Positions 9,518 to 27,314 of a stretch of DNA of 64,000 bases are shown here, one piece after another (position 1 is the first letter of the stretch; every line of letters starts with the position of its first letter). A model generated the notes under the pieces. That model saw nothing but the letters and a program-made list of their open reading frames with translations, did not search any database and had not been told where the DNA came from. A program made the translations under genes and the position numbers. Source of the DNA: an uncultured Bacteroidales bacterium (GTDB lineage Bacteria; Bacteroidota; Bacteroidia; Bacteroidales; Muribaculaceae); contig CADCFN010000012.1 in NCBI GenBank assembly GCA_902800715.1, positions 1-64,000 of the forward strand, in the 5' to 3' direction.

Positions 9518-10636
9518 TTAAACAAGCGTATATCGGCAACCCGGAAGGGTGACAATGACATTTTTGCAGTCGAGCTCGACCAGCACGCTCATGAGTTTAT
9601 AGACGGGCTGCTGCAGGGCATCAGCTAGGGTATTGAGATGAATTTCGCCCTGGTTGCGGATGACATCAATTACCGCTTGCTCTTCCTTGGTCAGCTCGGG
9701 AAAGAGATTGAGCTGAACGGGACTAGGTTTGTTACCCTCCCAGCGCATGGCAGTCATCAGGTCGTCGGCACCAGTAATGAGTGCTGCCTTGTTGGTGGCG
9801 ATAAGCTTATTACAACCCGTTGAAAACTCGTCCCCGCAACGTCCAGGCACCGCCATCACGTCGCGGTTGTAGCTCATGGCAAGCGATGCCGTGACCAATG
9901 CACCCCCAGAGCCAGCCGATTCAACAATCAACGTGCAATCGCTCAAGGCGGCAACGATGCGGTTGCGGGCGAGGAAATTGCTCTTCTGGACAGCGTCCTG
10001 GCTGGTGTAATCGGTCAGGAGCATACCACCATGCTTGACAATGGCAACGGCATCGTTGCGGTGCGTGGCGGGATAGATGCGGTTGAGACCCCGGGGCAAG
10101 ACCGCCACCGTGGGGACACCGTGCTTGAGTGCAGCACGATGGGCGGCGATGTCGATGCCATAGGCTAAACCGCTCACCACCACAAGGTCGGGCAGGCGCT
10201 GCACCAGCTCACCGATGAGCGTGTCACAGAAACGGATGCCGTATTGCGTGGCGTGACGGGTGCCCACTACACTGATGACATGGTCGCTCTCGAGGTTGCA
10301 ATGCCCCAGCGTATAAATCATCGCAGGAGCATCAGGAGCCTCCAGCAGACGATGGGGATAGGACGAATCTGTAAAATAGACAGCATTGATGTTGTGCTCA
10401 CGCACAAAGCGTTCCTCATCGATTGCCCGTTCCAGACACTCGCGGCGGTAGTCGTCGCGGTAAATCTTGCTGCGGCCACGCGTGAGGCTGCGCAGGTCTT
10501 TCTCGCTCATGGCAAAGAACTGCTCCTCGCTGCCCACGACGTCAAGCAGCTTGCGCGCTAAATCAACGCCCATGCCTTGCAGGTTGGCGAAGGCGATGCG
10601 ATAGACCAATGGTGTATGCCCGTTGTCAGCCGTCAT
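9518..10636 (-). CDS. dprA: DNA-processing protein DprA
   Basis: A 372-residue DprA/Smf protein, which loads RecA on incoming single-stranded DNA during natural transformation. An N-terminal helix-hairpin-helix/SAM-like region (about 1-80) is followed by the Rossmann-type DprA core (about 85-300) with SVVGTRHATQYG at 122-133, VVSGLAYGID and PRGLNRIYPATH, then SNFLARNRI and a C-terminal winged-helix region (about 305-372). Length and motifs are normal. Its ATG overlaps the TGA of the upstream thioesterase gene by 4 bp, so the pair is translationally coupled from one promoter. Confidence 0.95.
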   Translation of the reverse strand: MTADNGHTPLVYRIAFANLQGMGVDLARKLLDVVGSEEQFFAMSEKDLRSLTRGRSKIYRDDYRRECLERAIDEERFVREHNINAVYFTDSSYPHRLLEAPDAPAMIYTLGHCNLESDHVISVVGTRHATQYGIRFCDTLIGELVQRLPDLVVVSGLAYGIDIAAHRAALKHGVPTVAVLPRGLNRIYPATHRNDAVAIVKHGGMLLTDYTSQDAVQKSNFLARNRIVAALSDCTLIVESAGSGGALVTASLAMSYNRDVMAVPGRCGDEFSTGCNKLIATNKAALITGADDLMTAMRWEGNKPSPVQLNLFPELTKEEQAVIDVIRNQGEIHLNTLADALQQPVYKLMSVLVELDCKNVIVTLPGCRYTLV

Positions 10637-11064
10637 GTCCGGTCGAGGTATTTAGCAATGCGGGCAGCCAGGTCGTCGCCGCGGTTGATGCGCCCGTCCT
10701 TTTCCATACACACGATGGTGACCACGGCGTTGACTACCGGTGCCCCACCCTCTTTCTTGAAAATGTCCTGATAGAAAATGAAGCGTGGACCCTTACGCTC
10801 AATCCACAATCGGCTCAGCATCACGTCACCGGTGCGCAGCGGCGTGTGGTAGTCGATTTCCATGCGTCGCACTACAGGAATCAGTCCATCGCTCGTCAGG
10901 CTGCCGAAGGGGATACCCTCCTGCTTGACGAAAGCATGGCGCGTGTGCTCCAGATAGTGCAGATAAATGGCGTTATTGACGATGCCCTCGCTGTCGAGTT
11001 CGTAGTCTCGCACCGCTATCTCGAGCGTGAAGATATATTTGTCCTCGTTCATAGCCTTGTCCAT
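10633..11064 (-). CDS. Acyl-CoA thioesterase, YbgC/FadM-type hot-dog protein
   Basis: A 143-residue single hot-dog-fold thioesterase predicted to hydrolyse acyl-CoA or a related thioester in the cytosol. The segment VRDYELDSEGIVNNAIYLHY carries the 4HBT signature with probable catalytic Asp24 and the following VNNA(I/V)Y helix; LRTGDVMLSRLWIERKGPRF is the central strand pair. It is first in a two-gene operon with dprA and overlaps it by 4 bp. The promoter -7 box ends only about 8 bp upstream of the ATG at 11064, so the second ATG at 11052 (MNEDKYIF) may be the true start. Confidence 0.85.
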   Translation of the reverse strand: MDKAMNEDKYIFTLEIAVRDYELDSEGIVNNAIYLHYLEHTRHAFVKQEGIPFGSLTSDGLIPVVRRMEIDYHTPLRTGDVMLSRLWIERKGPRFIFYQDIFKKEGGAPVVNAVVTIVCMEKDGRINRGDDLAARIAKYLDRT

Positions 11065-11071
11065 TGTGTTG

Positions 11072-11103
11072 CAAAGGTAATCAAAATGCGAGAATTATTC
11101 AAA
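11072..11103 (-). promoter_or_regulatory. Promoter of the thioesterase-dprA operon
   Basis: On the minus strand TTTG (11103-11100), 20 bp, TACCTTTG (11079-11072). Its closeness to the first ATG implies a nearly leaderless mRNA or use of the ATG at 11052. Confidence 0.8.
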
Positions 11104-11213
11104 CCCTAAGGGCAGGAATACAAAACCTGGACCTAGAGAGAAGATAAAGTGTCAAATTTTTTGACAATATCGGCAAAAAAAATGAATCTATCGGCACTTT
11201 TGCACAAAAAACA

Positions 11214-11246
11214 CTTGACAGTAAAATATTATACTTGTTATATTTG
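11214..11246 (+). promoter_or_regulatory. Promoter of the M16 protease gene
   Basis: CTTG (11214-11217), 21 bp, TATATTTG (11239-11246), about 54 bp before the ATG. Confidence 0.65.
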
Positions 11247-11299
11247 CAGCAGCTAAACATTAATTTATTAACGATTAACCAAACTAAACTTATCATCTT

Positions 11300-14119
11300 A
11301 TGACAACAATCAAGCGATTTTTTACCGCGTTGCTGCTGATGCTCATGGTATTCAGCGTCAACGTGATGATGGCCCAACAGATGGAACTGTCCATCGACGA
11401 GGCCGTGCGAATCGGTAAGTTGGATTGCGGACTGACCTACTACATCCGCCACAACAACTATCCCGAGCAACGCGCCAACTTCTACATCGCCCAGCGTGTA
11501 GGTGCCATGCAGGAAGAAGACAACCAGAACGGTCTGGCCCACTTCCTGGAGCACATGGCCTTTAACGGCAGTGAGCACTTCAATGGCGAGGGACACCGCA
11601 TTGATGACTATCTCGATTCAAAAGGCTACAACAATGCCTATACCAATTTTACCGAGACCGTCTATATCATTAACGACATACCCACCACAAGCCAGGGAAC
11701 GATAGACTCGTGCATGCTCATCCTCAAGGACTGGAGCCATGGCCTGCTGCTCACCGACGAGGAAATCGACAAGGAGCGCGGTGTCATCCATGAGGAGTGG
11801 CGCCTGGGGCGCGATGCCGGCGAACGCATGCGCAACCGCCAATTGGAGAACCTTTTCCGTGGCTCGAAGTATGCCAAGCGTGATGTCATCGGTTCGATGG
11901 ACGTCGTGGACAATTTCCCCTATCAGGTGCTGCGCGACTACTATGACAAGTGGTACCGCCCCGATAACCAGGCGCTGGTCATTGTGGGTGACATTGACGT
12001 GGACTACATTGAGGCCAAAATCAAGGAACTCTTCAAGGACGTTCCCGCCCCCGGCCCCGACGCTGCCGTGGTTGAAACTTATCCCGTTCCCGACAACGAT
12101 GAGCCTATTGTTGTGATTGACAAGGATATTGAGCAGCAGCTCAGCTATGTCGGTCTCATGTTCAAGCATGATATCATCGAGAAGGAACAAAAGAATGACA
12201 TCAGCTACGTTGTCATTAACTACATGAAGAACATGATGAGCACAATGCTCAATCAGCGCTTTGAGGAGAAGGCCCAGGATTCCGAGTGTCCCTTCATCCA
12301 AGCCCGCGCTTACGATACGAGCTACTTGGGTGCCAACACCAAGGACGCTTTCAGTCTCACCGTCGTCCCCAAGGAAGGCTTGATTGAGGCCGCCACACAA
12401 GAAGGCATGATTGAAGCGCTGCGTGCTGCCCAATATGGCTTCACCGCTACCGAGTATGCCCGTGCCCAGGAGGAGTACATGAGCCGTCTCGAGCGCCAGT
12501 ACAACGAGCGCGACAAGGTGCACAACGACTATTATACCCAGAAGTGCTACCGCCACTATCTCGACAATGAGCCCCTGATGTCCATCGAGGAGAATTACGA
12601 GCTCATGAAGATGATTGTCCCCAACATTCCCGTTGAGGCCATCAACCAATTGCTCCCGCAACTCATCAGGACCGACGGCAAGAACCTGGTGGTACTCAAT
12701 TTCAACCAGGAGAAGGAAGGCGCCGTCTATCCCACCAAGGAAGGTCTGATGGCTGCCATCACCGCTGCCGAGAGGGCCGAAATTACCCCCTATGTTGACA
12801 ATGTGAAGCAAGAGCCCCTTATCGCCAACTTGCCCAAGAAGGGTAAAATCGTCAAGGAAAGCTACAACGAGACTCTGGGATACAAAGAACTGGAGCTGAG
12901 CAATGGCGTACACGTGCTACTCAAGCCCACCGACTTCAAGCAGGACGAAATCTACATGATGGCACAGCAGCGCGGCGGCAGCTCGCTCTACGGCGAGAAG
13001 GACTGGGCCAACTGCCAATTGTTTGAAGGTGTCATTGAGTATAGCGGTCTGGGTGGTTTCAACAACATGGAACTGAAAAAGGCCCTAGCCGGTAAGCGCG
13101 TGAACATCAGCCAGAGGATGCATGAGGATATGGACTACGTGACCGGTAGCTCCAATGTCAAGGACCTGGAGACCCTGTTCCAGCTGATTTACCTCCAGTT
13201 CACCGACGTCACCAAGGACGAGAAGAACTACAACTCATTGCTCAATATCCTCGACATCTCGCTCAAGAACAAGGATCTGGATCCCGACAATGTGTTCAAC
13301 GACACGCTCAACTACGTCACCAACAACTACAACTGGCGCAGCAAGCCCTTTACCGTCGAGGACATCCAGAATCTGAACTATGACCGCATCCTGGAAATCG
13401 GGAAGGAACGCACCGCCAATGCCGCCAATTACATCTTCGAGTTTATCGGCTCATTTGACGAGGCCACCATCCGTCCGCTCATCGAGCAGTACATCGCATC
13501 GTTGCCCGCCCAGAAGGGTAAGAAATCCAACTGGGTCAATATTTCGGATTATCCCAAGGGACAGACCATCAAGCACTTTACCCACAAGATGGAAACCCCC
13601 AAGACCAACATTAACATCAGTTGGTTTAACACCGACATGCCCTATACTCTGGAGAACAGCATCAGAGCCAACCTGCTGGGCAGGATTTTGAGCAAGATTT
13701 TCTATGACAAAATCCGCGAGGATGTCGGTGCTGCCTATTCAGTTGGTGCTTATGGCTTCAGCAGTTTGGAGGGTGACGAGAGCTACACTGCAATCACCGC
13801 CTATGCTCCCCTCAAACCCGAGTTTACCGAGTTGGCCGTCAGAATCATGAACGAAGAGATGCTCAAGGCCTGTGAGACCATCGACGCCGCCAAGCTCGAT
13901 GACTTCAAGACCGTCATGCTCAAGGACCACGAGACCCAGCTCAAGGAGAACAGCTATTGGTACAGTATCATCGGAACCTATGCCAACCGTGGTCTGGACA
14001 ACGTCACGGGCTATGAGGATATCGTCAAGGCACAGACCCCCGAGACCATCTCCGCCTTTGCCCGCGAACTCATGTCTGCCGGCAACAAGGTCGAGGTAGT
14101 CATGACCCCTGAAGAATAA
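11300..14119 (+). CDS. M16 family zinc metalloprotease, tandem-domain
   Basis: A 939-residue secreted or envelope peptidase of the pitrilysin family. A signal peptide (KRFFTALLLMLMVFSVNVMMA) precedes the first peptidase domain, whose inverted zinc motif HFLEH lies at 81-85 (His81, Glu84, His85), with Glu165 or Glu166 in HEEWRLGRDAG as the third ligand. A second, inactive M16 domain follows (about 500-930), with the R-Y-like pair replaced by DVGAAYSVGAYGF, which resembles the substrate-binding segment of the C-terminal half. The length of about 940 matches Bacteroidota paired M16 proteins. It has its own promoter and a strong terminator. The substrate is unknown. Confidence 0.93.
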   Translation: MTTIKRFFTALLLMLMVFSVNVMMAQQMELSIDEAVRIGKLDCGLTYYIRHNNYPEQRANFYIAQRVGAMQEEDNQNGLAHFLEHMAFNGSEHFNGEGHRIDDYLDSKGYNNAYTNFTETVYIINDIPTTSQGTIDSCMLILKDWSHGLLLTDEEIDKERGVIHEEWRLGRDAGERMRNRQLENLFRGSKYAKRDVIGSMDVVDNFPYQVLRDYYDKWYRPDNQALVIVGDIDVDYIEAKIKELFKDVPAPGPDAAVVETYPVPDNDEPIVVIDKDIEQQLSYVGLMFKHDIIEKEQKNDISYVVINYMKNMMSTMLNQRFEEKAQDSECPFIQARAYDTSYLGANTKDAFSLTVVPKEGLIEAATQEGMIEALRAAQYGFTATEYARAQEEYMSRLERQYNERDKVHNDYYTQKCYRHYLDNEPLMSIEENYELMKMIVPNIPVEAINQLLPQLIRTDGKNLVVLNFNQEKEGAVYPTKEGLMAAITAAERAEITPYVDNVKQEPLIANLPKKGKIVKESYNETLGYKELELSNGVHVLLKPTDFKQDEIYMMAQQRGGSSLYGEKDWANCQLFEGVIEYSGLGGFNNMELKKALAGKRVNISQRMHEDMDYVTGSSNVKDLETLFQLIYLQFTDVTKDEKNYNSLLNILDISLKNKDLDPDNVFNDTLNYVTNNYNWRSKPFTVEDIQNLNYDRILEIGKERTANAANYIFEFIGSFDEATIRPLIEQYIASLPAQKGKKSNWVNISDYPKGQTIKHFTHKMETPKTNINISWFNTDMPYTLENSIRANLLGRILSKIFYDKIREDVGAAYSVGAYGFSSLEGDESYTAITAYAPLKPEFTELAVRIMNEEMLKACETIDAAKLDDFKTVMLKDHETQLKENSYWYSIIGTYANRGLDNVTGYEDIVKAQTPETISAFARELMSAGNKVEVVMTPEE

Positions 14120-14139
14120 TTCCCCATTATAATTCAGCA

Positions 14140-14175
14140 AAGAGGATGTGCCACAATGAAGTGGCACATCCTCTT
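14140..14175 (+). terminator. Terminator of the M16 protease gene
   Basis: A 15-bp perfect stem AAGAGGATGTGCCAC (14140-14154) / GTGGCACATCCTCTT (14161-14175), 6-nt loop, followed by GTTGT. Confidence 0.85.
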
Positions 14176-14226
14176 GTTGTAACGCACTGTAAAGCCAATG
14201 ATGACACGGCATCTTGCTTTACACAA

Positions 14227-14261
14227 AGAGGGTGAGCCATAATGAATTAGGCTCACCCTCT
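14227..14261 (-). terminator. Terminator of the rpmB-rpmG-DUF4295 operon
   Basis: AGAGGGTGAGCC (14227-14238) pairs with GGCTCACCCTCT (14250-14261). It is about 30 bp after the minus-strand DUF4295 stop codon and directly ends the ribosomal cluster. Confidence 0.75.
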
Positions 14262-14289
14262 CGGATATCGTTTTACAGGTTGCAGTAAA

Positions 14290-14439
14290 TTACTTCAGCC
14301 AATCCTGTACCTTGTCGTTGGGGACCATGCGCTCCTCAAATACGTAAGCGCCAGTCTTCTCGGAGCGAACCATCTTGATGACCTTGCTCCATGAGCGTCC
14401 TTCACCAGTCTGAAGGGTTGCAACTACTTTCTTTGCCAT
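14290..14439 (-). CDS. DUF4295 family small protein
   Basis: It encodes 49 residues: MAKKVVATLQTGEGRSWSKV, then IKMVRSEKTGAYVFEERMVP and NDKVQDWLK. This is the DUF4295 family, a tiny basic protein conserved in Bacteroidota and almost always placed directly after rpmG; association with the ribosome is a fair guess but unproven. Here it is the last gene of the rpmB-rpmG-DUF4295 run, 34 bp after rpmG. In many Bacteroidales ftsY follows; here a terminator and the convergent M16 protease gene follow instead. Confidence 0.9.
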   Translation of the reverse strand: MAKKVVATLQTGEGRSWSKVIKMVRSEKTGAYVFEERMVPNDKVQDWLK

Positions 14440-14473
14440 AACTTATATAGTCGTTAAATGGTTTTGTACTGTT

Positions 14474-14688
14474 TTACTTAATCTCCTTGTGAACGGTCAT
14501 GCGTTTCAGATAGGGGTTGTATTTCTTGAGCTCCAAACGCTCGGTGGTGTTCTTGCGGTTCTTGGTCGTGATGTAACGGTGCGGTTCTTGGTCGTGATGT
14601 AACGGCTGATGCCGGGAACGCCAGTACCCTTCTGCTCGGTGCACTCGAGAATCACTTGCACGCGGTCGCCTTTTGCTTTCTTTGCCAT
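14474..14688 (-). pseudogene. rpmG: Ribosomal protein bL33 gene, frameshifted by a 26-bp tandem duplication
   Basis: The protein begins normally ([20 protein letters not shown] ... [11 protein letters not shown]) but a 26-bp segment is present twice in tandem at 14554-14579 and 14580-14605. Because 26 is not a multiple of three, the frame is lost right after ITTKNR and ends early at 14506. Removing one copy restores a 62-residue bL33 ending [17 protein letters not shown] then MTVHKEIK, with the stop at 14474-14476, the normal family length. bL33 is a zinc-free-type large-subunit protein that is dispensable in some bacteria, so a real mutation is possible; a sequencing or assembly duplication is an equally good explanation. 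Confidence 0.92.
14554..14605. repeat. 26-bp perfect tandem duplication inside rpmG
   Basis: Two identical, directly adjacent 26-bp copies beginning TGCGGTTCTTGG and ending GATGTAACGG. It is the sole cause of the rpmG frameshift. Confidence 0.95.
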
Positions 14689-14703
14689 AATTCGGTTCCT
14701 TTC

Positions 14704-14961
14704 TTACTTGTTGATAACTTGGATTTCGGTGAGGTGTCCATCCTCGGCAGCCTTCTTGAGGGCAGCGTCGAGACCCATCTTGTTAATGTTGCGCAAGCCT
14801 GATGCCGATACGGTCAAGCGAATCCACTGTCCCTGCTCGGGCCAGAAGAACTTGCGGTTGAAGACGTTAACGTTGAATTTGCGTTTCGTCCTGCGCTTGG
14901 AGTGCGATACGTTGTTGCCCGTGATCGCCTTCTTTCCGGTGATTTGACAAACTTTAGACAT
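14704..14961 (-). CDS. rpmB: Large-subunit ribosomal protein bL28
   Basis: An 85-residue bL28, a basic component of the 50S subunit. [20 protein letters not shown] and [20 protein letters not shown] followed by [17 protein letters not shown] are characteristic of the Bacteroidota form. It is the first gene of the rpmB-rpmG-DUF4295 operon (15 bp to rpmG). The promoter lies about 350 bp upstream, leaving an unusually long 5' leader. Confidence 0.97.
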
Positions 14962-15310
14962 AGTTTCTCTTTTGTTTAGTTATTGTTCTTTTTTTAAATT
15001 CTCTCGTTGTTGACTCGCGCGCTACATGCCTGCCTGTACACAGAAAAACACAGGCGCAGCACAATAAACCGGGTGTGGACATCCAATCGTGGAGAGGGCG
15101 CTCTTCCCCACCGGTGTGAGAAGCCCACCGGCATCAGGGGGTTGAACAACAATCGGGTGTCTCGCTCGTTTAATATCGTCCTACGCTTGACTGCCAGGCA
15201 CTTAGCATCATAGCCTCGACATCGAAGTTTCAACGATCAAGTGTCACACTCTTGACTTGACTAACGCATGAGCATCTTCGTCAGCAAGACATGTGCCGCG
15301 AAATCGGCTG
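14962..15310 (-). promoter_or_regulatory. Long 5' leader of rpmB, candidate structured RNA
   Basis: Between the promoter and the rpmB start about 345 nt would be transcribed. No convincing gene is present; a 79-codon open frame at 14994-15233 has no family resemblance and atypical composition (very Arg/Cys-rich). The leader contains inverted segments such as CACCGGTG near 15109 and CCCACCGG near 15125 that could pair. Leaders of this size before ribosomal protein genes often carry autoregulatory structures; here that is inference only. Confidence 0.4.
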
Positions 15311-15342
15311 CAAAGATACAACCGATTTTTGAACTACACAAC
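15311..15342 (-). promoter_or_regulatory. Promoter of the rpmB operon
   Basis: On the minus strand GTTG (15342-15339), 20 bp, TATCTTTG (15318-15311), followed by a typical GCAGC start region. Confidence 0.7.
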
Positions 15343-15434
15343 AGATTGACAACACTTTTTCATCATTTTTTATCTTAGGGAATTCATCTGATACCTCAGA
15401 TAATCAAAAAACTGTGTGGTCCAAAGGCAAAAAT

Positions 15435-15467
15435 CAAGGGCTTGTCCCATGAACGGACAAGCCCTTG
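15435..15467 (-). terminator. Terminator downstream of the dockerin-type protein gene
   Basis: A 13-bp perfect stem CAAGGGCTTGTCC (15435-15447) / GGACAAGCCCTTG (15455-15467) with a 7-nt loop; on the minus strand it is followed by ATTTTTGCC. Confidence 0.85.
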
Positions 15468-15499
15468 AAATGATGTATCTGTCTGTGATGGGAAAGCAC

Positions 15500-16471
15500 T
15501 TATTTCAGTTCCAGCAAACGGTCGATAAGCAATGAAATGTCAGCAACTCCAATCATGCCGTCATCGTCCATATCGCCCTGGGTAGATGCATTTCCACCCT
15601 TTAACAGCAAATCAACCATGTTGGAAATGTCGCCAACGGCAATGATTCCGTCACCGTCCAAGTCGCCAAGAACTCCATTGGCCTCACCTCTCACGGGAAT
15701 CGTCACCAGGGGAACTCCTGCATGAGTGCAATAAACCTTGATTGTGGCCTCATGCACGCCGCTCCAGCGGGGGAAATAGCTGATTTTAACCGTGCAGATG
15801 TTTGCAATAGAGCTAGTCTTGACAAACCTTGCAAGGAAATGAACACTGCCCGGACCCTCAATCGAAATGGAGTAACCGTCCCCGTTCAATCCGCCAAAAT
15901 CAATCATCGAAATGCCACTAGCAGCAGGACTTGCCACCACGGGGGGATTGGTGGGATCGGTCGGCACCTCGTATTCGGCAAACCTGATAGTGCCGGTACG
16001 GGTAACGAGCTGACCGACATAGGCCGTAAAGCATTCCTGCTGGTTATTCACGAAAGCCTCTTCGGGATAATAGGGGTCGGCAGTAATCGGGATATCGACA
16101 TCGGCCGCGCCCTCGCTCGAGAGGATAAGGTCAGCATCCATCCACCACCATGAGCCGGGGCTATAGGTTACCACTACCGTAGCACCGTTGGCCGCCTGCT
16201 CGGGGGTAATGGTCTGGGGCGTCACCTTGTAATAATTGACAGAGCGAGCCTGTACTTCCAGATTGATGTTGTCGGTCAGGTCGTAACCGGTCACAACGAG
16301 TTGTTTCTTCACGGGGTAGCCCACCTCGACGGCACCGAAATCAAGGGCGTCAACGCTAGCCTCGATAACCGGCGTCATGTGGTAACCACGGTCAGAAAAA
16401 CCAACCGAAGCGGCTCTTACTTGAGTCATCGCAAGAACAAACGAAATCATCAATAGTAGTCTAAGTCTCAT
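15500..16471 (-). CDS. Exported protein with C-terminal dockerin-like repeats
   Basis: A 323-residue exported protein. The signal peptide MRLRLLLMISFVLAMTQVRA is followed by an immunoglobulin-like beta region (ALDFGAVEVGYPVKKQLVV, typical of ASH/choice-of-anchor domains) and a second beta domain. Residues about 268-323 contain two dockerin type I (F-hand) calcium motifs: DLDGDGIIAVGDISNMVDLL and DMDDDGMIGVADISLLIDRL. True dockerins dock to cohesins in cellulosomes; in gut Bacteroidales such domains are found on proteins of unknown partner. It is monocistronic with its own terminator. Function beyond export and calcium binding is not recognised. Confidence 0.8.
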   Translation of the reverse strand: MRLRLLLMISFVLAMTQVRAASVGFSDRGYHMTPVIEASVDALDFGAVEVGYPVKKQLVVTGYDLTDNINLEVQARSVNYYKVTPQTITPEQAANGATVVVTYSPGSWWWMDADLILSSEGAADVDIPITADPYYPEEAFVNNQQECFTAYVGQLVTRTGTIRFAEYEVPTDPTNPPVVASPAASGISMIDFGGLNGDGYSISIEGPGSVHFLARFVKTSSIANICTVKISYFPRWSGVHEATIKVYCTHAGVPLVTIPVRGEANGVLGDLDGDGIIAVGDISNMVDLLLKGGNASTQGDMDDDGMIGVADISLLIDRLLELK

Positions 16472-17599
16472 AATCTCAAAAAATTAAGTGGTTGATAATT
16501 AACGCCACTCCTTGGCGGAAATAATAATACAAAACTTACATACCAATGATTTACAGATACTTAACATAGCAAGACATTAAATCCCAATCACCATATGTAC
16601 ATTTATAGTGCAAATATCGTCAAAAATATTGACCTGTGCAAGAGATTAGCCCATAATTCAAGGCAAGCACATCATGTAATCGTGCTAAACAGTAATGCCC
16701 AGCACGATTACATTTCCAGCCAGAAAACAGATGGGGACGCGGTAGTTTCTGGACCAAACGCATCCCCATCAAAACCTTGATTATGAGAAACAGTTTTTTA
16801 ACCTTTTATCTTCTTTTGCCATATAATCAACCTATTTTCAGCTTCGTTTCTCGGTTCATGAATCTATCGGTTCAAAAGAGGTGCGGCACTTAGGTGTAAT
16901 CCGCACCTCTATCCATAACACTCATCTATTACCTCATTATCCATATAACCACAAACTTATGAAAAAAAACTTTAGCATTCTATTCTAATCGCCCGAGGGC
17001 TTCTTTGTCATCGATAATTCTGTTGGGGCGGGAGTGTTAAAGTAAGGTTAAAAGAAGGTGCGCCTTGTGTGTGTTGTATTGACGTGTTGACCAGTGCGAC
17101 GCACCTTCGTCTTCAACCCTACGCTTATGAAAAACAATTTACACTCTTTTCCCATTCATGACTTTTTTCTCTAGCAAGGCAGTAACTCTTTTTTAATAGT
17201 ATGGTGCGCTGCGAAGCAGGTGCAGCGCACCTATACCCAAAACCAATCATTTAATCAACCAAATGCTTATGAAAAAAAGATTACCACATTAACTTCATTC
17301 AATTCATTCACATATTTAACATAATTCTTGTTGCTCATCTTTTTGGTCCCGTCTTGCAGCAGTCTGATGGTTGTTTTTGGAAAAAGGGTGCGTATCACCA
17401 GGTGCTACGCACCCCAAACAGTCATCTAAAAACTACACTCACGAAAAAATCACTAATTCTTACTTTATAACTATTAACCACGTCACTGACACCTTAAGGT
17501 CATTGACTGTTGAATTTCATTTTACTGAGTTGCTGAATCCGGGAGAGGATGTGTCGCGGGTTGTGCCCGGCGGAAAGCGCCCGGCGCCCCCTATGCTCA
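16472..17599. other. 1.1-kb gene-free stretch containing a tandem array of hairpin + start-codon modules
   Basis: No conserved gene. It holds a first perfect hairpin at 16674-16713 (13-bp arms ATGTAATCGTGCT / AGCACGATTACAT), then five modules. Each has a GC-rich hairpin (16730-16770, 16877-16910, 17054-17108, 17203-17231, 17386-17414; arms mostly of the GGTGCG / CGCACC type) followed 12-48 nt later by a start-like (C)TTATGAAAAA motif (ATG at 16783, 16959, 17127, 17269; ACG at 17441) and a pyrimidine-rich tail that stops after 7-36 codons. The period is about 142-183 bp. The rest of the stretch (17444-17599) shows nothing beyond a GC-rich patch at 17555-17595. Confidence 0.75.
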
Positions 17600-17833
17600 C
17601 TATTCCAAGTTATAAGTCAATAAAGTCTCACTATGCTGATGCCGGGTTCCGACCATCTGCTCGTTCCCGGTCGAGTCTGGCAATGTTGGCTTATCGGCCT
17701 GCGACAGCCCTGATGGACCGTGCCGCCCCGCAGTGCCATGCCCTGAAATCAGGTCACGGCCCACCTGTGTCATTCCCGCCGCAATGGTCAGGAACACACA
17801 AAAGCAGATAAGTGATAATAAAAGATGTATCAT
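17600..17833 (-). CDS. Small membrane-anchored or secreted ORF of 77 residues, doubtful
   Basis: The N-terminus MIHLLLSLICFCVFLTIAAG is a good signal or membrane segment; the remainder (VGRDLISGHGTAGRHG and on) is low-hydrophobicity and not recognised. It starts 5 bp after the stop of the upstream small ORF on the same strand, and a promoter-like pair lies at 18212-18243, so the two could form one short transcript. No family is recognised. The C-terminal half runs through a GC-rich patch and may not be real coding sequence. Confidence 0.35.
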   Translation of the reverse strand: MIHLLLSLICFCVFLTIAAGMTQVGRDLISGHGTAGRHGPSGLSQADKPTLPDSTGNEQMVGTRHQHSETLLTYNLE

Positions 17834-17838
17834 AATGT

Positions 17839-18057
17839 TCAGATTTTATATATGTCTTTATAATAATTAGTAGCCGCATTCAAATGTGTGTTTCCATCAA
17901 TGGCATTCTTGCCCGCACCTGCTATGTGGGGAATCCTTTGGAATCTATCAAGGGCGCAAAGCGCTTGCCGCACACCCTTGCATGCAGGACAGATTGCTGT
18001 CTTAATGATAGAAACGTTTTCATAATCCAAATAATTCTCCGCACCGCTCGCCTCCAC
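17839..18057 (-). CDS. Small ORF of 72 residues with CPAC motif, doubtful
   Basis: It reads MEASGAENYLDYENVSIIKT, then AICPACKGVRQALCALDRFQ and ends NYYKDIYKI. A CPAC pair and a third Cys are the only notable residues. It is followed after 5 bp by the small signal-peptide ORF and sits downstream of a plausible minus-strand promoter. No homologous family comes to mind. It is kept as a candidate because of this arrangement, in an otherwise gene-free region. Confidence 0.3.
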   Translation of the reverse strand: MEASGAENYLDYENVSIIKTAICPACKGVRQALCALDRFQRIPHIAGAGKNAIDGNTHLNAATNYYKDIYKI

Positions 18058-18516
18058 ATCCAGGCGCTACAGGTGTTTTAATTGTTATGACTCATGTAAT
18101 ATATATAATGTAAAAAGCCGCCCATCGACCCAATCGGGTACAGGTACAGCTATCAACACTCTATTTATTACAGTTCATCATTTATATAATTAGTAATCCT
18201 TAATATCGCTGCAAATTTATAGAATAATTTTATACTCTGCAACAAAATCTCTAAAAAAAATTTCAATTTAACAAATTACTACCGTTTTCAGTAGTATTGG
18301 CATTGTTTTTATAACACAGAGCAGACTTTGGGCCAACAGGAGCGGACATTTGGAAAAGAGTTTCCAATTCCAAAACGAAAACAGAACTGTCATCGGTGCC
18401 CAGCCGCCCACTTCAACTGCCAGCTGACTTTAGAACTCCATAAAACGAAAAAAATTCAAGTCGAAGTGTCATTTACAAAGACAAATAATTTTTTTTTGAA
18501 AATATCACCATTTTGT
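18058..18516. other. AT-rich intergenic stretch
   Basis: About 460 bp without a supported gene. The only signals seen are the minus-strand promoter-like pair at 18212-18243 and the small inverted repeat ACTAC...GTAGT near 18276-18293. Confidence 0.6.
18212..18243 (-). promoter_or_regulatory. Possible promoter for the two small ORFs
   Basis: On the minus strand GTTG (18243-18240), 20 bp, TAAATTTG (18219-18212). A transcript would have a leader of about 150 nt before the first small ORF. Confidence 0.5.
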
Positions 18517-18547
18517 TTTGTAAATTCAAAAAAAGTATTTACCTTTG
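18517..18547 (+). promoter_or_regulatory. Consensus promoter of the small RNA candidate
   Basis: TTTG (18517-18520), 19 bp, TACCTTTG (18540-18547): an exact match to the Bacteroidota promoter pattern, preceded by an A/T-rich upstream stretch. Confidence 0.85.
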
Positions 18548-18553
18548 CACAAT

Positions 18554-18683
18554 CAAGCAAATTCAAAAGCTATGGAATGTAAAATTGTTTATCGCAAGCT
18601 GTGAAGCCAGGCGAATGACTTTAAGTGCTTAGTAATGGTTTGTTTTACAGAACGATAACCCAGGCCTCGAGCCTGGGTTTTTC
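18554..18683 (+). ncRNA. Candidate small RNA of about 130 nt
   Basis: A consensus promoter and a strong intrinsic terminator enclose about 130 nt with no conserved protein gene. The only open frame is a 10-codon one starting MECKIVYRKL. Expected start is near 18554; the 3' end is the hairpin AACCCAGGC / GCCTGGGTT with a T run at 18678-18682. It does not show the hallmarks of tmRNA, RNase P RNA or SRP RNA. It could be a trans-acting sRNA, a 6S-like RNA (though short for that) or a transcript for a micro-peptide. Confidence 0.65.
18657..18682 (+). terminator. Intrinsic terminator of the small RNA
   Basis: AACCCAGGC (18657-18665), loop CTCGA, GCCTGGGTT (18671-18679), with a run of five T. Confidence 0.9.
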
Positions 18684-18712
18684 GATTATTATACTACATG
18701 GCAGATACAACA

Positions 18713-18738
18713 ATGGCGTGGATAGTAATCCACGCCAT
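18713..18738 (-). terminator. Terminator of the winged-helix protein gene
   Basis: ATGGCGTGGA (18713-18722) / TCCACGCCAT (18729-18738), 6-nt loop, about 57 bp after the minus-strand stop codon. Confidence 0.7.
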
Positions 18739-18794
18739 CGCTGCTATATCAGGGATGTTAAAATCTTAATCCAGGAACCGGTTGTGAAATGTGC

Positions 18795-19001
18795 TTAGCG
18801 CAGCGACACCTTGATGTCGTCCTTGCCCTCAGCGAAGTCGAGCTTGCCTTCCTTGGCGAGCCAACCCAGAGCGCAGTGCATCTCGTTCACTTTGAGCTTA
18901 GTAACCTTGCGCAGGTCCTTCAGATAAAGAGCCTTCTTCGCATCGTTCAGGGCGTTCCACACGAGACCAGCCCAATTGCCAATGTTTTCTACGTTGATCA
19001 T
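18795..19001 (-). CDS. Winged helix-turn-helix domain protein (DUF2582 type)
   Basis: A 68-residue protein that is essentially one winged-helix domain: MINVENIGNWAGLVWNALND, then LYLKDLRKVTKLKVNEMHCA, LGWLAKEGKLDF and a short wing. This matches the DUF2582 winged-helix family common in Bacteroidales, proposed to bind DNA but of unknown target. The ATG at 19001 was chosen because a longer reading from 19058 would start inside the -7 promoter region. A promoter and terminator make it monocistronic. Confidence 0.85.
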   Translation of the reverse strand: MINVENIGNWAGLVWNALNDAKKALYLKDLRKVTKLKVNEMHCALGWLAKEGKLDFAEGKDDIKVSLR

Positions 19002-19055
19002 AAAAAAATTAATTAAACCTTTAATAAAACAATCAATGATTACTATAAATCGCTG

Positions 19056-19088
19056 CAAAGGTACTATTTTTTTGAAAACTTATACAAG
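19056..19088 (-). promoter_or_regulatory. Promoter of the winged-helix gene
   Basis: On the minus strand CTTG (19088-19085), 21 bp, TACCTTTG (19063-19056). Confidence 0.65.
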
Positions 19089-19161
19089 AATCCAAGCAAA
19101 AAGTTATGCAACAATTAATGCAAATCGCTGATTATCAACAATTTAAATAAATTACGAATTA

Positions 19162-20052
19162 TCACTCAAAAGTACCTCCAAGCAAGCGATACAGGTCAAG
19201 TGCAGCCGCAAAGTCACTGCGCTGCCCGTCGCTGAGCATCTTCACATGATGAATGCCACGGGTGCTGACCAACTTAAGCGCTACCCAATTGCTGTGCGCA
19301 AGGGCATACACCAAATCCTTGTAGCGCTCACCCAGCACATCGTCGCTTGACTCCCAATAGAGCCCGCCTGGCAATGTGCCATGCAGATGTTCACTGGGAT
19401 AAAAGGGATAATCAAAACCGTCGATGCTGAAGATCAACTGGTCGAAGTCGAGCGGGTCATCGGCACAATAGCGCACGCACAGGCGCAAGGGACCCGGCAA
19501 GCTGTCACCCTCGGCCATGGCAAAGGTGAAGTAAACCTCGTTGCTAGTGGGCTCGAGAGAAACGTATTTGGAGAGATAGTCGCCATTGTCGTTCTGCACG
19601 ATGATGGGCATCAGCTGGTCGATGGTAGTTGTCACAGGCAGGTCACGCCACTTCATGCGGCGGTAGCCAAACTCGGTCAACGAATAGTCTATCGCCAACA
19701 GGGAGTCCAGAGCGGCCTGCTCCTCGGGGGTTTTGCTGGTGCTCAGCTGACGCGGTTTCAATCGATGTCCCTTGACGGCGGTACTGTCCTTCGCTGTCGT
19801 TGGCGGCAGGTCGACCAATCCCCACGGGTCGTCGCTCGTGTCCCAAGGGTCGTCCTTAGGCTCTGCCTTGCGGGACATCTGCTCTTGCAGTTTCTTTACT
19901 GCCTTGAGACGCTCACGTTCAGGGTGCAGTCGCCGTATGCCGCGCTGCAGACTCGGGTCCTTGTCGTCATCGTCACGGGTGGAACTTGCCATCCCAACAG
20001 GGGCGGCAAGAAGGATGACAAGCAGCAGCAATATGAATCTTGTTAGTTTCAT
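19162..20052 (-). CDS. Exported hypothetical protein
   Basis: A 296-residue protein with signal peptide MKLTRFILLLLVILLAAPVG, a charged, Asp/Pro-rich linker (about 25-110, with DDPWDTSDDPWG repeats) and a C-terminal globular part (about 130-296) containing LRLCVRYCADDPLDFDQL and FSIDGFDYPFYP. No catalytic motif or family is recognised. It is co-directional with cinA upstream (49 bp gap) and may be co-transcribed. Confidence 0.65.
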   Translation of the reverse strand: MKLTRFILLLLVILLAAPVGMASSTRDDDDKDPSLQRGIRRLHPERERLKAVKKLQEQMSRKAEPKDDPWDTSDDPWGLVDLPPTTAKDSTAVKGHRLKPRQLSTSKTPEEQAALDSLLAIDYSLTEFGYRRMKWRDLPVTTTIDQLMPIIVQNDNGDYLSKYVSLEPTSNEVYFTFAMAEGDSLPGPLRLCVRYCADDPLDFDQLIFSIDGFDYPFYPSEHLHGTLPGGLYWESSDDVLGERYKDLVYALAHSNWVALKLVSTRGIHHVKMLSDGQRSDFAAALDLYRLLGGTFE

Positions 20053-20101
20053 TATTATCTCTTATATAAAAGCTATAGAAGACATCGTGGCAAACGGCGC
20101 T

Positions 20102-21337
20102 TTACAGCAGGGAGAGCAAGAGCAACTGTGCCTCGAGGGTGGCACGGGTGATAACGCGGTCGCGGTCACCGGGCAGCTGCTTGAGCTGGGTAACAACACG
20201 GTCGCCACACTTGGCTGCCATCCACACGGTGCCTACAGGCTTGGTAGGCGTGCCACCGCCTGGTCCAGCAATGCCGCTAGTGGCAATGGCGCAATCTGTG
20301 CCCAATGCCCGACAAGCGCCCTCAGCCATCTGCCGCACGACGGGTTCGCTCACTACACCATGGTCGATGATGTCCTGCTCGCTGACGCCCAACAGCGACA
20401 TCTTTACCTCATTGGCATAGCTCACTACAGCGCCCTTAAAATAGTCACTGCTACCGGCGATGCTTGTAATCTGGTGGGCGATATTGCCGCCCGTGCAGCT
20501 CTCGGCAGTGGCCAGCGTCAATCCGCGCTCTCGCAGGCGGTCACCCAAAATCTCGGGCAACCGCTTGTCGCCGTCGGCGATGATGTGGCCACCCAGGATG
20601 TCGTGCAACTGGCGCGACAGGCGTTCCATATCATCGTTAATCTGGCGTGCATCGGTCGAAGAGCCTGTCAAGCGCAGGCGGATGATGCCACCCTCAGGCA
20701 GATAGGCCAGATGGATGCCATGAGGCATATTGCGCTCGAACTCATCGAGCAGCATTGCCAGTGCCGACTCGATGATGCCCGTGACGACAAAGGTGCGGAA
20801 CTCGATGTCCTCACCGTCGTTGAAGCGTGCCAGCAGCTGCGGGATGACGGCGCGTTCCATCATTCCCTGGAGTTCAAAAGGCACCCCAGGCATGCTCACA
20901 AGCATCTTGCCATCGCGCTCAAACCACATGAGGGGCGCCGTGCCAACCTCGTTCTGAATGACGCGGCACGACGAGGGCACCATCGCCTGCAGGCGGGTGT
21001 ACTCGTTGAGCTTGAGGTGGCGGCGTTCCATCACCTGACGCACATTGGCCTCAACAGCCTCGTCGAGGACCATTTCGCCACCGAAGTAGCGGCACAATGT
21101 GGGCTTGGTGATGTCGTCCTTGGTTGGTCCCAGACCGCCGGTCATCAGCACGACGTCGGTCTGAGCAAAGGCACGGTCGATGGCGAGTTTAATCTGCTCG
21201 GCATCGTCGGGAACGACCTGAATGGTATTCACATCCCAACCGCGCGGCGTCATGTGACGTGCGATCCAGCCTGAGTTGGTGTCGGTGACCTGCCCTATGA
21301 GCAACTCGTCACCGATGGCAATAATGCTGTATTTCAT
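20102..21337 (-). CDS. cinA: CinA, nicotinamide-nucleotide amidohydrolase / competence-damage protein
   Basis: A 411-residue full-length CinA. The N-terminal molybdopterin-binding-like domain (about 1-170; IAIGDELLIGQVTDTNSGWI and MTGGLGPTKDDIT) has ADP-ribose pyrophosphatase activity in characterised members. The C-terminal domain (about 250-411; TAESCTGGNIAHQ, VVSYANEVK, SGIAGPGGGTPTKPVGTVW) is the nicotinamide mononucleotide deamidase used in pyridine nucleotide salvage. The 5' side carries CTGA-type repeats immediately before the ATG. The exported protein gene at 19162 is downstream. dprA elsewhere in the window is a separate competence gene. Confidence 0.96.
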   Translation of the reverse strand: MKYSIIAIGDELLIGQVTDTNSGWIARHMTPRGWDVNTIQVVPDDAEQIKLAIDRAFAQTDVVLMTGGLGPTKDDITKPTLCRYFGGEMVLDEAVEANVRQVMERRHLKLNEYTRLQAMVPSSCRVIQNEVGTAPLMWFERDGKMLVSMPGVPFELQGMMERAVIPQLLARFNDGEDIEFRTFVVTGIIESALAMLLDEFERNMPHGIHLAYLPEGGIIRLRLTGSSTDARQINDDMERLSRQLHDILGGHIIADGDKRLPEILGDRLRERGLTLATAESCTGGNIAHQITSIAGSSDYFKGAVVSYANEVKMSLLGVSEQDIIDHGVVSEPVVRQMAEGACRALGTDCAIATSGIAGPGGGTPTKPVGTVWMAAKCGDRVVTQLKQLPGDRDRVITRATLEAQLLLLSLL

Positions 21338-21340
21338 GAT

Positions 21341-21374
21341 TCAGTTTTCAGTTGTCAGTTTTCAGTTATCAGAC
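21341..21374 (-). repeat. CTGA-rich leader repeat before cinA
   Basis: Read on the minus strand the segment is a run of AACTGA / AAACTGA / CAACTGA units ending 3 bp before the cinA ATG. The same kind of sequence precedes tsaD, the metallophosphoesterase gene and tex. Confidence 0.7.
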
Positions 21375-21399
21375 TTTAGACTTTAGGCCTTAGTTTTAG

Positions 21400-22005
21400 T
21401 TACAGGGCGGGGATTTCCTTGGCGGGCCAGCCGTAGTCCTGATAGTACTTGACGGACAGTTTGTTGGCCTTCACATAGTCGGCAATAGAAGCAGCGCGGG
21501 CATTCTCGCGGTAATTCTCATCGCTGTTAGCAGCATGGAAGGCATCATAATATTCGCCAAAGATGCGCTTGGCACTCTCTAAATTGCCATGGCCACTCTC
21601 AACCTGCTCAAATGCAACGACCTGGTATTCACCATTATCATTCTTCTTGATTAACATCTTGCCAGGATGGTCGCCGCCCGACACACACTTCAGGGTATCA
21701 CCTGCCACCTTGTAGTTAAATACCCAGTAGTCGCCCCACATGAATACGCTATCGGCTTTCAGACCATCAGAACAAGTCATCGCTATCACGGGAATGCACA
21801 TGTCACCCTCGGCATATTGTGCCCCAATCGTATCAACCAGATACTTATTAATAGCATCGATGATAACGTCACCCTCCTGGGCTGTATCGGCAGCCAAGGT
21901 GTCCTCAGTAGCCTTACTGGCATCAGCATTCCCATTGCAGGAAGTCAAGCAACCAACGCCGCAAAACAGGATGGCGGCCAGCATCCATAATTTCATCTTA
22001 TTCAT
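21400..22005 (-). CDS. Lipoprotein of unknown function
   Basis: A 201-residue protein with a lipoprotein signal (MKLWMLAAILFCGVGCLTSC, lipobox LTSC with Cys23). The mature part has an Asp/Ala/Glu-rich spacer, then a compact domain with INKYLVDTIGAQYAEGDMCI and FMWGDYWVFNYKVAGDTLKC. Pattern resembles lipoproteins of unknown function found across Bacteroidales. A -7 box TACCTTTG (minus strand, 22045-22038) lies just upstream. It is separated from cinA by the repeat region. Confidence 0.75.
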   Translation of the reverse strand: MNKMKLWMLAAILFCGVGCLTSCNGNADASKATEDTLAADTAQEGDVIIDAINKYLVDTIGAQYAEGDMCIPVIAMTCSDGLKADSVFMWGDYWVFNYKVAGDTLKCVSGGDHPGKMLIKKNDNGEYQVVAFEQVESGHGNLESAKRIFGEYYDAFHAANSDENYRENARAASIADYVKANKLSVKYYQDYGWPAKEIPAL

Positions 22006-22112
22006 AGTTCGATTCCTATTATATTGATGTTATGCTGCAAAGGTAGTAATTTTTTGGTTGTGTATGACTAATAGCACTTTTTTGTCTCCCATTTTTTCAA
22101 GTTCGACAGGGA

Positions 22113-22146
22113 TTTGCAGAAAAACCGAGAAAATATGCTACCTTTG
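22113..22146 (+). promoter_or_regulatory. Promoter of the membrane protein / M48 protease pair
   Basis: TTTG (22113-22116), 22 bp, TACCTTTG (22139-22146). Confidence 0.6.
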
Positions 22147-22227
22147 TGAAGTTTTGTGACACCTGGATGCATCTGAAGGACAGAAGATGAATGACAGGAT
22201 TTATTAACCTATTTAAGTCAACGCATT

Positions 22228-22797
22228 ATGAAACGCGAAGATCATATCGATGAGAAGTATATTCCTACCGAGGAGGATTTCGCTCCTGAGCAGGTCAACG
22301 AAAAGGAGCAGTTGCTCAAGTCCATCAGGAAGGGCTGTCGTTTCTATATTGTTTTTTACTCCATTCTGGCTATCATTTTTGCTATCGAAGGCTTCATCAA
22401 GTTTGACGATGTGAGCGACAGCAAACTGTATCTGTGTCCGCTCATAGCACTGATGCTGGTGTTTGCGTTGGTCATGGTGTTCTATGCTTTCATCTATGAC
22501 CTCGTCCGTCGTTCCTCGACAGCCAGCGAGATGCAGCACTTCCTCAGGCTGCTTGGTGCTGACTCCCTTTTCTCCAAGCTGATTCTCATCATCATGACAT
22601 TGTGCTTTATGATGGCTGCTGCCTTATGGCTTCTGGACAAATGCCCATGGTATTTAATCATACTCGCCGTCATCGGTATTGCGGCTTTAATCGGCGGGGT
22701 GTGGTGGCTACTCAAGAATTCAGGGAAAGGGAATCCTGACGACTTGAATATTGAGAAACTACGAGCCCTGGAAGAGAAAGAAAGACAATCGCTGTGA
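22228..22797 (+). CDS. Four-helix membrane protein of unknown function
   Basis: A 189-residue protein with a charged N-terminus (residues 1-37), four predicted membrane helices (about 38-57, 69-90, 113-134, 139-161) and a charged cytoplasmic tail. No catalytic motif is visible. The stop is 42 bp before the M48 protease gene on the same strand, so the two may be co-transcribed and the protein may act with the protease, but that is inference from position. Confidence 0.65.
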   Translation: MKREDHIDEKYIPTEEDFAPEQVNEKEQLLKSIRKGCRFYIVFYSILAIIFAIEGFIKFDDVSDSKLYLCPLIALMLVFALVMVFYAFIYDLVRRSSTASEMQHFLRLLGADSLFSKLILIIMTLCFMMAAALWLLDKCPWYLIILAVIGIAALIGGVWWLLKNSGKGNPDDLNIEKLRALEEKERQSL

Positions 22798-22839
22798 GCG
22801 ATGAAAGAATAACCTTGTGGAAACTAATCTGAAGTAGAG

Positions 22840-24090
22840 ATGGCACAAACGTTATTGTGGTTGATTATCGCATTTGTTACGCTGGAGTTTATCGTCAGCA
22901 GTGTGTTGTCGTGGCTGAATACCACTTGGATGACACATCCCGTGCCGCCCGAGTTGGAAGGGCTGTATGACGAGGAGAAATACCGCAAACAGCAGGACTA
23001 CATGCGCACCAACAAGCGCGTGTCGCTCATCGCGCGTTGCGTGTCGTTCGGGCTGACGCTGACGATATTGGGCTTTGGGCTGCTGGGATGGCTCGACAAC
23101 CAGTGCAAAGCGTGGACCGACGTGCCTGTCTTGCAGGTTATCCTGTTCCTTGCCATCTACAACTTGTTCACTACCGTCATCGGGCTGCCATTCAGCTATT
23201 ACTCGACCTTTGTCATCGAGGAGCGTTTCGGCTTCAACCGCACGACACACAAGACCTTTTGGCTCGATGCGCTGAAGTCCTTTGCCGTCTCAACCGTATT
23301 GAGTGCTGTGCTGATGGCCGTGGTATATTGGCTGTACCTGACCTTCGGGCAGCAATTCTGGATTTGGGCGACACTGGTGTGTGCCGTGTTCATCATCTTC
23401 TTCTCGATGTTCTACAGCAACCTGATTGTGCCCTTGTTCAACAAGCAGACACCCCTGCCCGAAGGCGAATTGCGCGATGCCATCACAGCGGCCGTAGCAA
23501 GTTTCGGCTCACGCTTCAAGGACATCTATATCATCGACGGCAGCAAGCACTCAACTAAGGCCAATGCCTATTTCACGGGCTTCGGTCCCAAGAAACGCAT
23601 CGTGCTGTATGACACCTTGCAGGACCAGATGACCAACGACGAAATCGTCGCCGTGCTGGCGCACGAGTTCGGTCACTACAAGCACCGCGACACTTTCAAG
23701 AACATGTTCATTTCGATTGCTATGGTGGCAGTCAACCTGTTTATCTTCTCGCTGTTGGTAAGCAATCCCGACCTGCCCGCGGCACTGGGTGGTACAGCGC
23801 CGTCGTTCATCCTGTCGATGGTGGCGTTCTCGCTACTGTTCTCACCCATCGACCTGCTGCTCAACCCTGCCAGCAACGCCATCTCACGTCGTGCCGAATA
23901 CCGCGCCGATGCCTACGCTGCCAGCCACGGCCATGGCGAAACCCTCATCAGCGGACTCAAGAAACTCGCTGCCCACGGCTTGAGCAACCTCACTCCGCAC
24001 CCCCTAGTCGTGTGGTTCAGCTACAGCCACCCCACCCTAGCGCAACGCATCCGCGCCATCCGCAGTTCAAACAACAAGGACAACAACTAA
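22840..24090 (+). CDS. M48 family (Ste24-like) membrane metallopeptidase
   Basis: A 416-residue integral membrane zinc protease of the Ste24/CAAX prenyl protease 1 type. About seven hydrophobic helices are visible. The zinc motif HEFGH (about residues 274-278, in VLAHEFGHYKHRD) and the third ligand in SRRAEYRADAYAASHG are intact. The N-terminal region with a YRKQQDYMRTNKR segment and the SYYSTFVIEERFGFNRTTHK loop match Ste24. In bacteria these enzymes are thought to take part in membrane protein quality control. It lies in tandem after the four-helix membrane protein. Confidence 0.92.
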   Translation: MAQTLLWLIIAFVTLEFIVSSVLSWLNTTWMTHPVPPELEGLYDEEKYRKQQDYMRTNKRVSLIARCVSFGLTLTILGFGLLGWLDNQCKAWTDVPVLQVILFLAIYNLFTTVIGLPFSYYSTFVIEERFGFNRTTHKTFWLDALKSFAVSTVLSAVLMAVVYWLYLTFGQQFWIWATLVCAVFIIFFSMFYSNLIVPLFNKQTPLPEGELRDAITAAVASFGSRFKDIYIIDGSKHSTKANAYFTGFGPKKRIVLYDTLQDQMTNDEIVAVLAHEFGHYKHRDTFKNMFISIAMVAVNLFIFSLLVSNPDLPAALGGTAPSFILSMVAFSLLFSPIDLLLNPASNAISRRAEYRADAYAASHGHGETLISGLKKLAAHGLSNLTPHPLVVWFSYSHPTLAQRIRAIRSSNNKDNN

Positions 24091-24194
24091 ACAACCGGGA
24101 CAACGGTCTTAAAAGGGAAACAGCGGCTTTATAGCTTCAAAGCAATTAGCCAGCAGTGTTAAACTAATCTCGCCGTACGAAGAGATCTAGTCAT

Positions 24195-24971: not shown

Positions 24972-25009
24972 TTCATTAAATTACTATTATAATACTTTGA
25001 TCTTTATCG

Positions 25010-26089: not shown

Positions 26090-26253
26090 GATATGCTTGA
26101 TTTGTTGAAAGTCGTGGCAAATATACACATTTTTCTTGTATCATCATTTAGAACAAATTGGCATTGCTCGCCATTCGGCTCTCAAATAATGGTGGCTAAA
26201 AAGTTTGTTGATGTAGAAATTACAGAATTGCGATACACCGTTATGAAACCTTG

Positions 26254-27270: not shown

Positions 27271-27290
27271 CAGTTGTCAGTTTTCAGTTT
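27271..27290 (-). repeat. CTGA-rich leader repeat before tsaD
   Basis: On the minus strand AAACTGAAAACTGACAACTG abuts the tsaD ATG. It fills nearly the whole interval between the -7 box and the start codon. Confidence 0.75.
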
Positions 27291-27297
27291 GAGGGTG

Positions 27298-27305
27298 CAA
27301 AGGTA
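27298..27305 (-). promoter_or_regulatory. Promoter -7 box of tsaD
   Basis: TACCTTTG on the minus strand (27305-27298). No good -33 box is seen at the expected distance. Confidence 0.55.
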
Positions 27306-27314
27306 CTAATTTTT

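Follow-up and report, generated by a model that had tools for sequence, protein, structure and literature searches.

Within a 64,000-nt stretch of an uncultured Bacteroidales genome, hereafter the window, we identified five tandem hairpin modules that we interpret, with a probability of roughly 60%, as minus-strand noncoding RNA units built like FopS, the released RNAs of which would block the translation starts of mRNAs for exported and surface proteins. The units, their conservation, the covarying stems, the T-run strand, the promoter motif and a preference of the seeds for start codons were computed. From the anatomy, the conservation and the FopS precedent we infer that the locus is transcribed, that the transcript is cut or terminates leakily, and that the released RNAs pair with mRNAs in the cell and repress them, as follows. 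One minus-strand transcript would start near position 18205, cross a short frame and enter the array, where it would end at successive, partly leaky terminators or be cut, so that units A to E are set free. The seed of each unit (UUUUUUCAU, antisense to AUGAAAAAA start regions) would be U-rich and single-stranded, followed by a linker and an intrinsic-terminator hairpin. By pairing at the translation start of an mRNA for an exported or surface protein, a released RNA would block ribosome entry, as start-codon pairing is reported to block translation for FopS-10 (PMC11697453).

The genome of the window comprises 3,298,579 bases in 27 contigs and is 88.9% complete. A covariance model built on 18 units from six genomes located the five modules at 16727–17470, all on the minus strand, when positions 10000–30000 of the window were scanned, which bears out the number and place of the hairpin modules given by the first-pass annotation. 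Their E-values ranged from 1.2e-12 to 0.0033 with the next-best match at 0.11, and plus-strand matches in the same scan did not exceed 17.8 bits. Units A and C of the window were in the training set of the model, and its B, D and E units were left out, although units of relatives were included.

Unit A (17378–17470; 79.2 bits, E = 1.2e-12, in the training set) consists of the seed region TTTTTTCGTGAG, a linker, a hairpin with an inner GCACC and TTTTT. Unit B (17194–17298; 67.8 bits, E = 1.3e-10, outside the training set) has the seed TTTTTTTCATAAG, a long linker and a hairpin with an inner GCACC, with no T-run in this genome or in its relative G072. The seed of unit C (17048–17155; 58.2 bits, E = 6.9e-9, in the training set) is TTTTTCATAAG, followed by a large-loop hairpin and TTCTTTT, and that of unit D (16871–16989; 41.8 bits, E = 6.3e-6, outside the training set) is TTTTTTTTCATAAG, followed by a hairpin and TCTTTT. 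The divergent unit E (16727–16812; 26.6 bits, E = 0.0033, outside the training set) reads TTTCTCATAA, a GATGGGGATGCG hairpin and TCTGTTTTC. The 5' ends of the units, all read on the minus strand, are spaced by 172, 143, 166 and 177 bp. Past unit E, an extra hairpin (16674–16713, strand not assigned) forms an inverted repeat with neither seed motif nor T-run.

In a typical unit, AAGTGYTAAT..TTTTTTCATAAG is followed by a linker and by a GGTGCG/CGCACC hairpin, after which most units have a T-run; exact CTTATGAAAAA is found in units B, C and D, ATGAGAAAC in E and ACGAAAAAA in A. The exact pattern GGTGCG-N(3-30)-CGCACC has 10 sites in the genome, three of which are array units and seven of which lie inside long open frames. 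The region 16660–17450 contains no convincing gene, in line with its earlier description as gene-free, and one 146-codon TTG frame enters it at 17371. The array had no match in the plasmid and phage collections, and Rfam gave nothing above the gathering score in the whole window; matches to STnc40, Enterococcus-1, STnc420, a snoRNA and other Rfam families were rejected with scores far under their cut-offs. Hairpins of an integron-like or other recombination type were considered too and are not favoured.

We then compared the locus with its relatives. In the genus set of 101 genomes, which includes the genome of the window (G000), blastn with the array and its flanks matched 20 genomes, 12 of them only in a short sequence that lies upstream of the neighbouring gene for a secreted protein, and the unit model matched 21 genomes at E ≤ 0.01. 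Arrays of at least three units were found in six genomes (G000, G072, G081, G027, G093 and G016), always downstream of the gene for the same 296-aa protein; that of G072 contains A, B, C and an E-like unit, with D missing. Nine more genomes carry one or two units (G050, G055, G061, G018, G059, G060, G074, G079 and G076), and the copy-number variation between genomes that the first-pass annotation had looked to as a sign of a functional array is therefore present. In G050 and G055, no island lies directly past the 296-aa gene and the island is found ~6 kb further on. A family-wide scan at E ≤ 0.001 matched 11 of 347 genomes, ten of them of this genus, and an order-wide scan at E ≤ 0.01 matched 2 of 295, one of them being G000 itself; the other (G676) was discarded, its E-value of 0.0011 among 295 genomes being at chance level. 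Solo units occur at other places in G000, G094 and G100. One of those in G000 (L048) has a promoter motif of its own 25 nt before the seed, and BTnc231 matches it with 28.9 bits against a cut-off of 80.4.

Two further features were observed at the loci of relatives. In G016, a DDE transposase gene (L114, 2040–3345; PF01609, E = 6e-31), read against the array, splits the leader between the promoter region and the array, and the ends of the insertion resemble inverted repeats. At one- and two-unit loci, a second hairpin type with the arms GGCACAC../..GTGTGCC and a loop keeping GGTTAATAGATG or GGTAATAGAT adjoins the unit, as in G074 (L150, 2775–2875), G055 (L154, 2565–2660), G079, G061 and G060.

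All 15 array and unit loci adjoin the same divergently read noncoding RNA candidate, which lies at 18518–18680 on the plus strand of the window. This strongly conserved candidate of ~130 nt has a promoter TTG-N19-TACCTTTG and a terminator at 18657–18679, has no Rfam match and has AAGTGCTnAnTAAT in common with the array seeds. Its core 19-mer is present in 31 of the 38 loci fetched first and in all seven others, and an exact 30-mer was found in 37 genome contigs. Sites complementary to it in G000 were limited to its own locus and one site with three mismatches. Just upstream of the locus, a 68-aa DUF2582 winged-helix protein is encoded at 18795–19001 on the minus strand (PF10771, E = 1e-14). 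On the other side of the array, a stretch upstream of the secreted-protein gene (16540–16650, minus strand; TTGACGATATTTGCACTATAAATG) recurs elsewhere in G000 and in at least 12 relatives and is probably a promoter or operator common to a gene family.

The strand and the structure of the units were evaluated on the aligned units, in which 90.4% of the stem cells pair. Double changes were counted in 30 cells, whereas shuffles gave 11.2 ± 2.9 and none of 500 reached 30, and sliding the partner columns abolished the signal; covariation measured by pair count and by pair types was weaker, being reached by 9 and 19 of 500 shuffles, respectively. The stems differ in sequence yet keep pairing, as the first-pass annotation had noted, and the compensatory changes that it named as a check are present. 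T-runs were scored as the Ts in the 12 bases past the stem for 25 units from eight genomes, 23 of which were scorable. The minus strand had more Ts in 20 units, fewer in two and an equal number in one (means of 5.5 versus 3.1), with a p-value of 6e-5 that is optimistic because orthologues are not independent and the A units of G027 and G093 were scored on the inner hairpin. The earlier observation of minus-strand T-runs past the stems therefore holds, and the remark made beside it, that terminators or small RNAs might be read from the other strand, is the reading that the evidence supports.

A motif scan predicted a Bacteroidota-type promoter for the array transcript, TTG-N20-TAAATTTG, at 18212–18242 on the minus strand. 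With N20 it is present at the same place in G072, G081, G027 and G093 and absent from G016, that is, in five of the six array genomes including G000. Such a motif was found between the divergent noncoding RNA and the first unit at 7 of the 16 loci scanned, and its strict form occurs 19 times on both strands of the window. From 18212 to 15341 on the minus strand, the scan found no TTG-N18-22-TAnnTTTG, so the units have no promoter motif each. Between the predicted promoter and the array lies a short frame of 76 codons (17603–17833, minus strand; MIHLLLSLICFC... by reading), which matched no NCBIfam family and gave a best Pfam E-value of 0.15.

The units also have position-specific features. Likeness of the seed flanks was 0.63, 0.54, 0.62 and 0.48 within positions A, B, C and D, respectively, and 0.43–0.55 between positions, and the difference of 0.093 was reached by none of 2000 permutations within genomes; the position of a unit was taken from its rank within the array, and the closely related G000 and G072 contribute to this comparison. 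All 12 A and B units contain a second partner at a fixed distance past the 5' arm (GGTGC-GNN-GCACC), while an exact GCACC was found nearby in 2 of the 10 C and D units. The short inner hairpin has -5.6 kcal/mol versus -17 to -24 kcal/mol for the full terminator, which leaves it only the roles of kinetic competitor and binding element. Tentatively, and with considerable doubt, the locus might be a polycistronic bank of small RNAs, in which one promoter serves a row of FopS-like modules, the first terminators are made leaky by the competing hairpin, promoter strength and read-through set the number of different start-codon blockers, and each position has its own seed and its own set of surface-protein targets without an RbpB-type antagonist.

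For the seeds, we searched the genome for likely targets. The 12 genome sites of CTTATGAAAAA comprise seven real gene starts, the three array units and two likely solo relatives on the other strand (L048, and L054 near L246). According to Pfam, the seven genes encode two dockerin proteins (one also with LRR), one more LRR protein, one Cleaved_Adhesin protein, one HlyD-type protein, one endonuclease/phosphatase and one protein without a match. Pairing was evaluated at 317 gene starts taken from 464 kb of G000, with an offset profile on 150 of them. Real and shuffled seeds at the 317 start regions gave -15.78 and -14.14 kcal/mol for A, -15.87 and -14.62 for B, -16.91 and -16.03 for C, and -15.60 and -14.34 for D. 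In all four units, the minimum of the real-minus-shuffled difference fell at the start codon (-1.31, -1.44, -0.86 and -1.38 for A to D; 150 genes); differences at other offsets were -0.4 to +1.1 for B, C and D and -0.1 to -1.0 for A, so that A beats its shuffles at several offsets elsewhere. Signal-peptide-like starts, called by a crude rule made for this analysis, accounted for 18, 18, 14 and 14 of the top 25 targets of A, B, C and D, respectively, compared with 136 of 317 overall and 6 to 15 for shuffled seeds (p = 0.002, 0.002, 0.12 and 0.12). A FopS seed of G000, put through the same pairing test, did no better than its shuffles (-11.61 versus -11.42), which cautions against leaning on such energies.

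Among the other explanations, the array could give the neighbouring secreted-protein gene a leader with stacked conditional terminators, acting as a cis attenuator of read-through from the ~18205 promoter into this gene (15500–16471, minus strand). The units, the promoter and the gene are all on one strand, the competing hairpin is present in every A and B unit, and the start of the gene ranked fifth among the 317 for pairing with unit B. This explanation is weakened by G016, in which the next gene past the array encodes isocitrate dehydrogenase on the opposite strand and there is accordingly no gene to attenuate; the solo units elsewhere in G000, G094 and G100 also argue against it, and we consider it unlikely. 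Quite unlikely, too, is that the locus yields a single long, structured RNA (or an mRNA for a short peptide, with the array as its 3' part) in which the hairpins confer stability or bind protein and the units are never released, the U-rich motif being a protein site. The single promoter motif and the constancy of GGTGC-GNN-GCACC in A and B units would fit such an RNA, but T-runs past most hairpins suggest termination, the seeds are position-specific and prefer start codons, and solo copies exist.

The first-pass annotation had favoured the plus strand, with leader-peptide attenuators, micro-peptide genes or relics of duplicated secreted-gene 5' ends. In favour of these, CTTATGAAAAA is the start of real genes at seven of its genome sites. 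Within positions A, B and C, however, the A-run varies from 5 to 7 in length, which puts units that agree in the letters past it into different frames; unit B reads MKKRLPH in G000 and MKKDYHII in G081, a stop directly after MKK ends unit C of G072, and in unit A of G000 ACG stands in place of ATG. Because A-run length and frame vary among orthologous units and one ATG is ACG, peptide coding on the plus strand was ruled out, and with T-runs favouring the opposite strand and covarying stems that decay would not maintain, we regard all three plus-strand proposals as very improbable. The start-like motif noticed in the first-pass annotation is itself real, and the antisense of start codons is a better reading of it than a start codon.

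If the FopS-like reading is true, start-codon-blocking small RNAs of this kind would extend past Bacteroidaceae into rumen bacteria and could form tandem arrays with position-specific seeds. The array would then offer a natural series of related regulators in which order, dosage and target choice are open to testing, and it would suggest that, in fibre-rich gut communities, exported proteins of the cell surface are controlled at the level of translation. The Rfam FopS model fails to reach such divergent look-alikes.

We finally compared the array with known systems. FopS small RNAs, a paralogous family known from Bacteroides (Rfam RF04319), are described as carrying the R1 seed in a single-stranded 5' part, followed by a terminator, and as binding near the start codons of susC-like mRNAs to repress translation, which is counteracted by RbpB (PMC11697453). 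The RF04319 consensus starts with GUGUUUUUCAU and holds UUUUUCAU, then the terminator. The array shares this layout in its consensus, covariation and T-runs in most units, with A (UUUUUUCGU), E (UUUCUCAU) and B (no T-run) as exceptions, and it resembles FopS as reported (RF04319, PMC11697453) in the unstructured 5' part with U5-6CAU before a terminator hairpin, in being multicopy and, by computed pairing, in a seed that favours start-codon regions.

RF04319 had 13 matches in G000 at E ≤ 10, with a best score of 53.2 bits and none over the 56-bit cut-off, and 8 of 14 control genomes also matched; no array unit was among the 13, nor was one returned by Rfam scans with E-value limits of 5 and 10. 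At E ≤ 1, a threshold at which chance alone should give about one match in each genome, all 101 genus genomes matched, 46 of them over the cut-off, compared with 2 of 14 control genomes, one over the cut-off. Conversely, when run unfiltered on 24 FopS loci, many of which are near-identical copies and whose T-runs aid such matches, the unit model gave weak matches at the FopS site, in the correct orientation, in 22 (E = 0.0032 to 9.9), along with eight other matches. In another genus, the unit model matched two copies in G319 at E = 6.8e-4, where ~0.2 matches would be expected by chance among 347 genomes, and RF04319 gave these copies 38.2 and 37.3 bits. Since RF04319 misses the array units even at E = 10 and the matches of the unit model to FopS are weak, the units appear from their anatomy and these matches to be FopS-like, not FopS.

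Two side observations concern FopS-like sequences elsewhere. The two near-identical copies in G319 (C71:9733-9825 and C71:11232-11324) flank one gene and could recombine. In G000, three two-module RNAs (C2:66118-66271, C16:10988-11147 and C12:80174-80370) combine a FopS-like 5' part with a second conserved module (GTTTAAGGTTTATGTTAATGGTATTAGAGGTTAATTAG) and end in a terminator, and RF04319 weakly matches both parts in two of the three.

The array differs from FopS in that its units stand in tandem at one locus, its seed and linker vary by position and its stems are of the GGTGCG/CGCACC type. Whereas fopS genes are reported to have sigma-ABfr promoters (PMC11697453), the array units lack a promoter motif each. 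The RbpB domain RRM_1 (PF00076) was undetected at E ≤ 0.001 in the 88.9% complete genome G000; in the control set of 14 genomes the same search matched two, one of them Bacteroides ihuae. GibS of B. thetaiotaomicron, compared by description only, likewise has the FopS R1 seed and pairs with translation initiation regions, but it is described as a single gene with two seeds and another promoter (PMC11697453). SnoA (PMC13370916), as described there, was set aside as unrelated to the array.

We found no report of a tandem FopS-like array in the open-licence PMC literature, and the words 'tandem' and 'Muribaculaceae' are absent from the main text of PMC11697453. Related small RNAs side by side are described for PrrF1/PrrF2, OmrA/OmrB and AbcR1/2, with PrrH requiring read-through of the prrF1 terminator, and the two to six streptococcal csRNAs are listed as distal/tandem (PMC4211561). 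The PrrF, OmrA/OmrB and AbcR siblings, as presented in that source, are pairs from other phyla with unrelated sequences, whereas in the array one predicted promoter precedes as many as five units. In sum, tandem sibling small RNAs and read-through between them are already known (PMC4211561), while the tandem arrangement of FopS-like units looks new.
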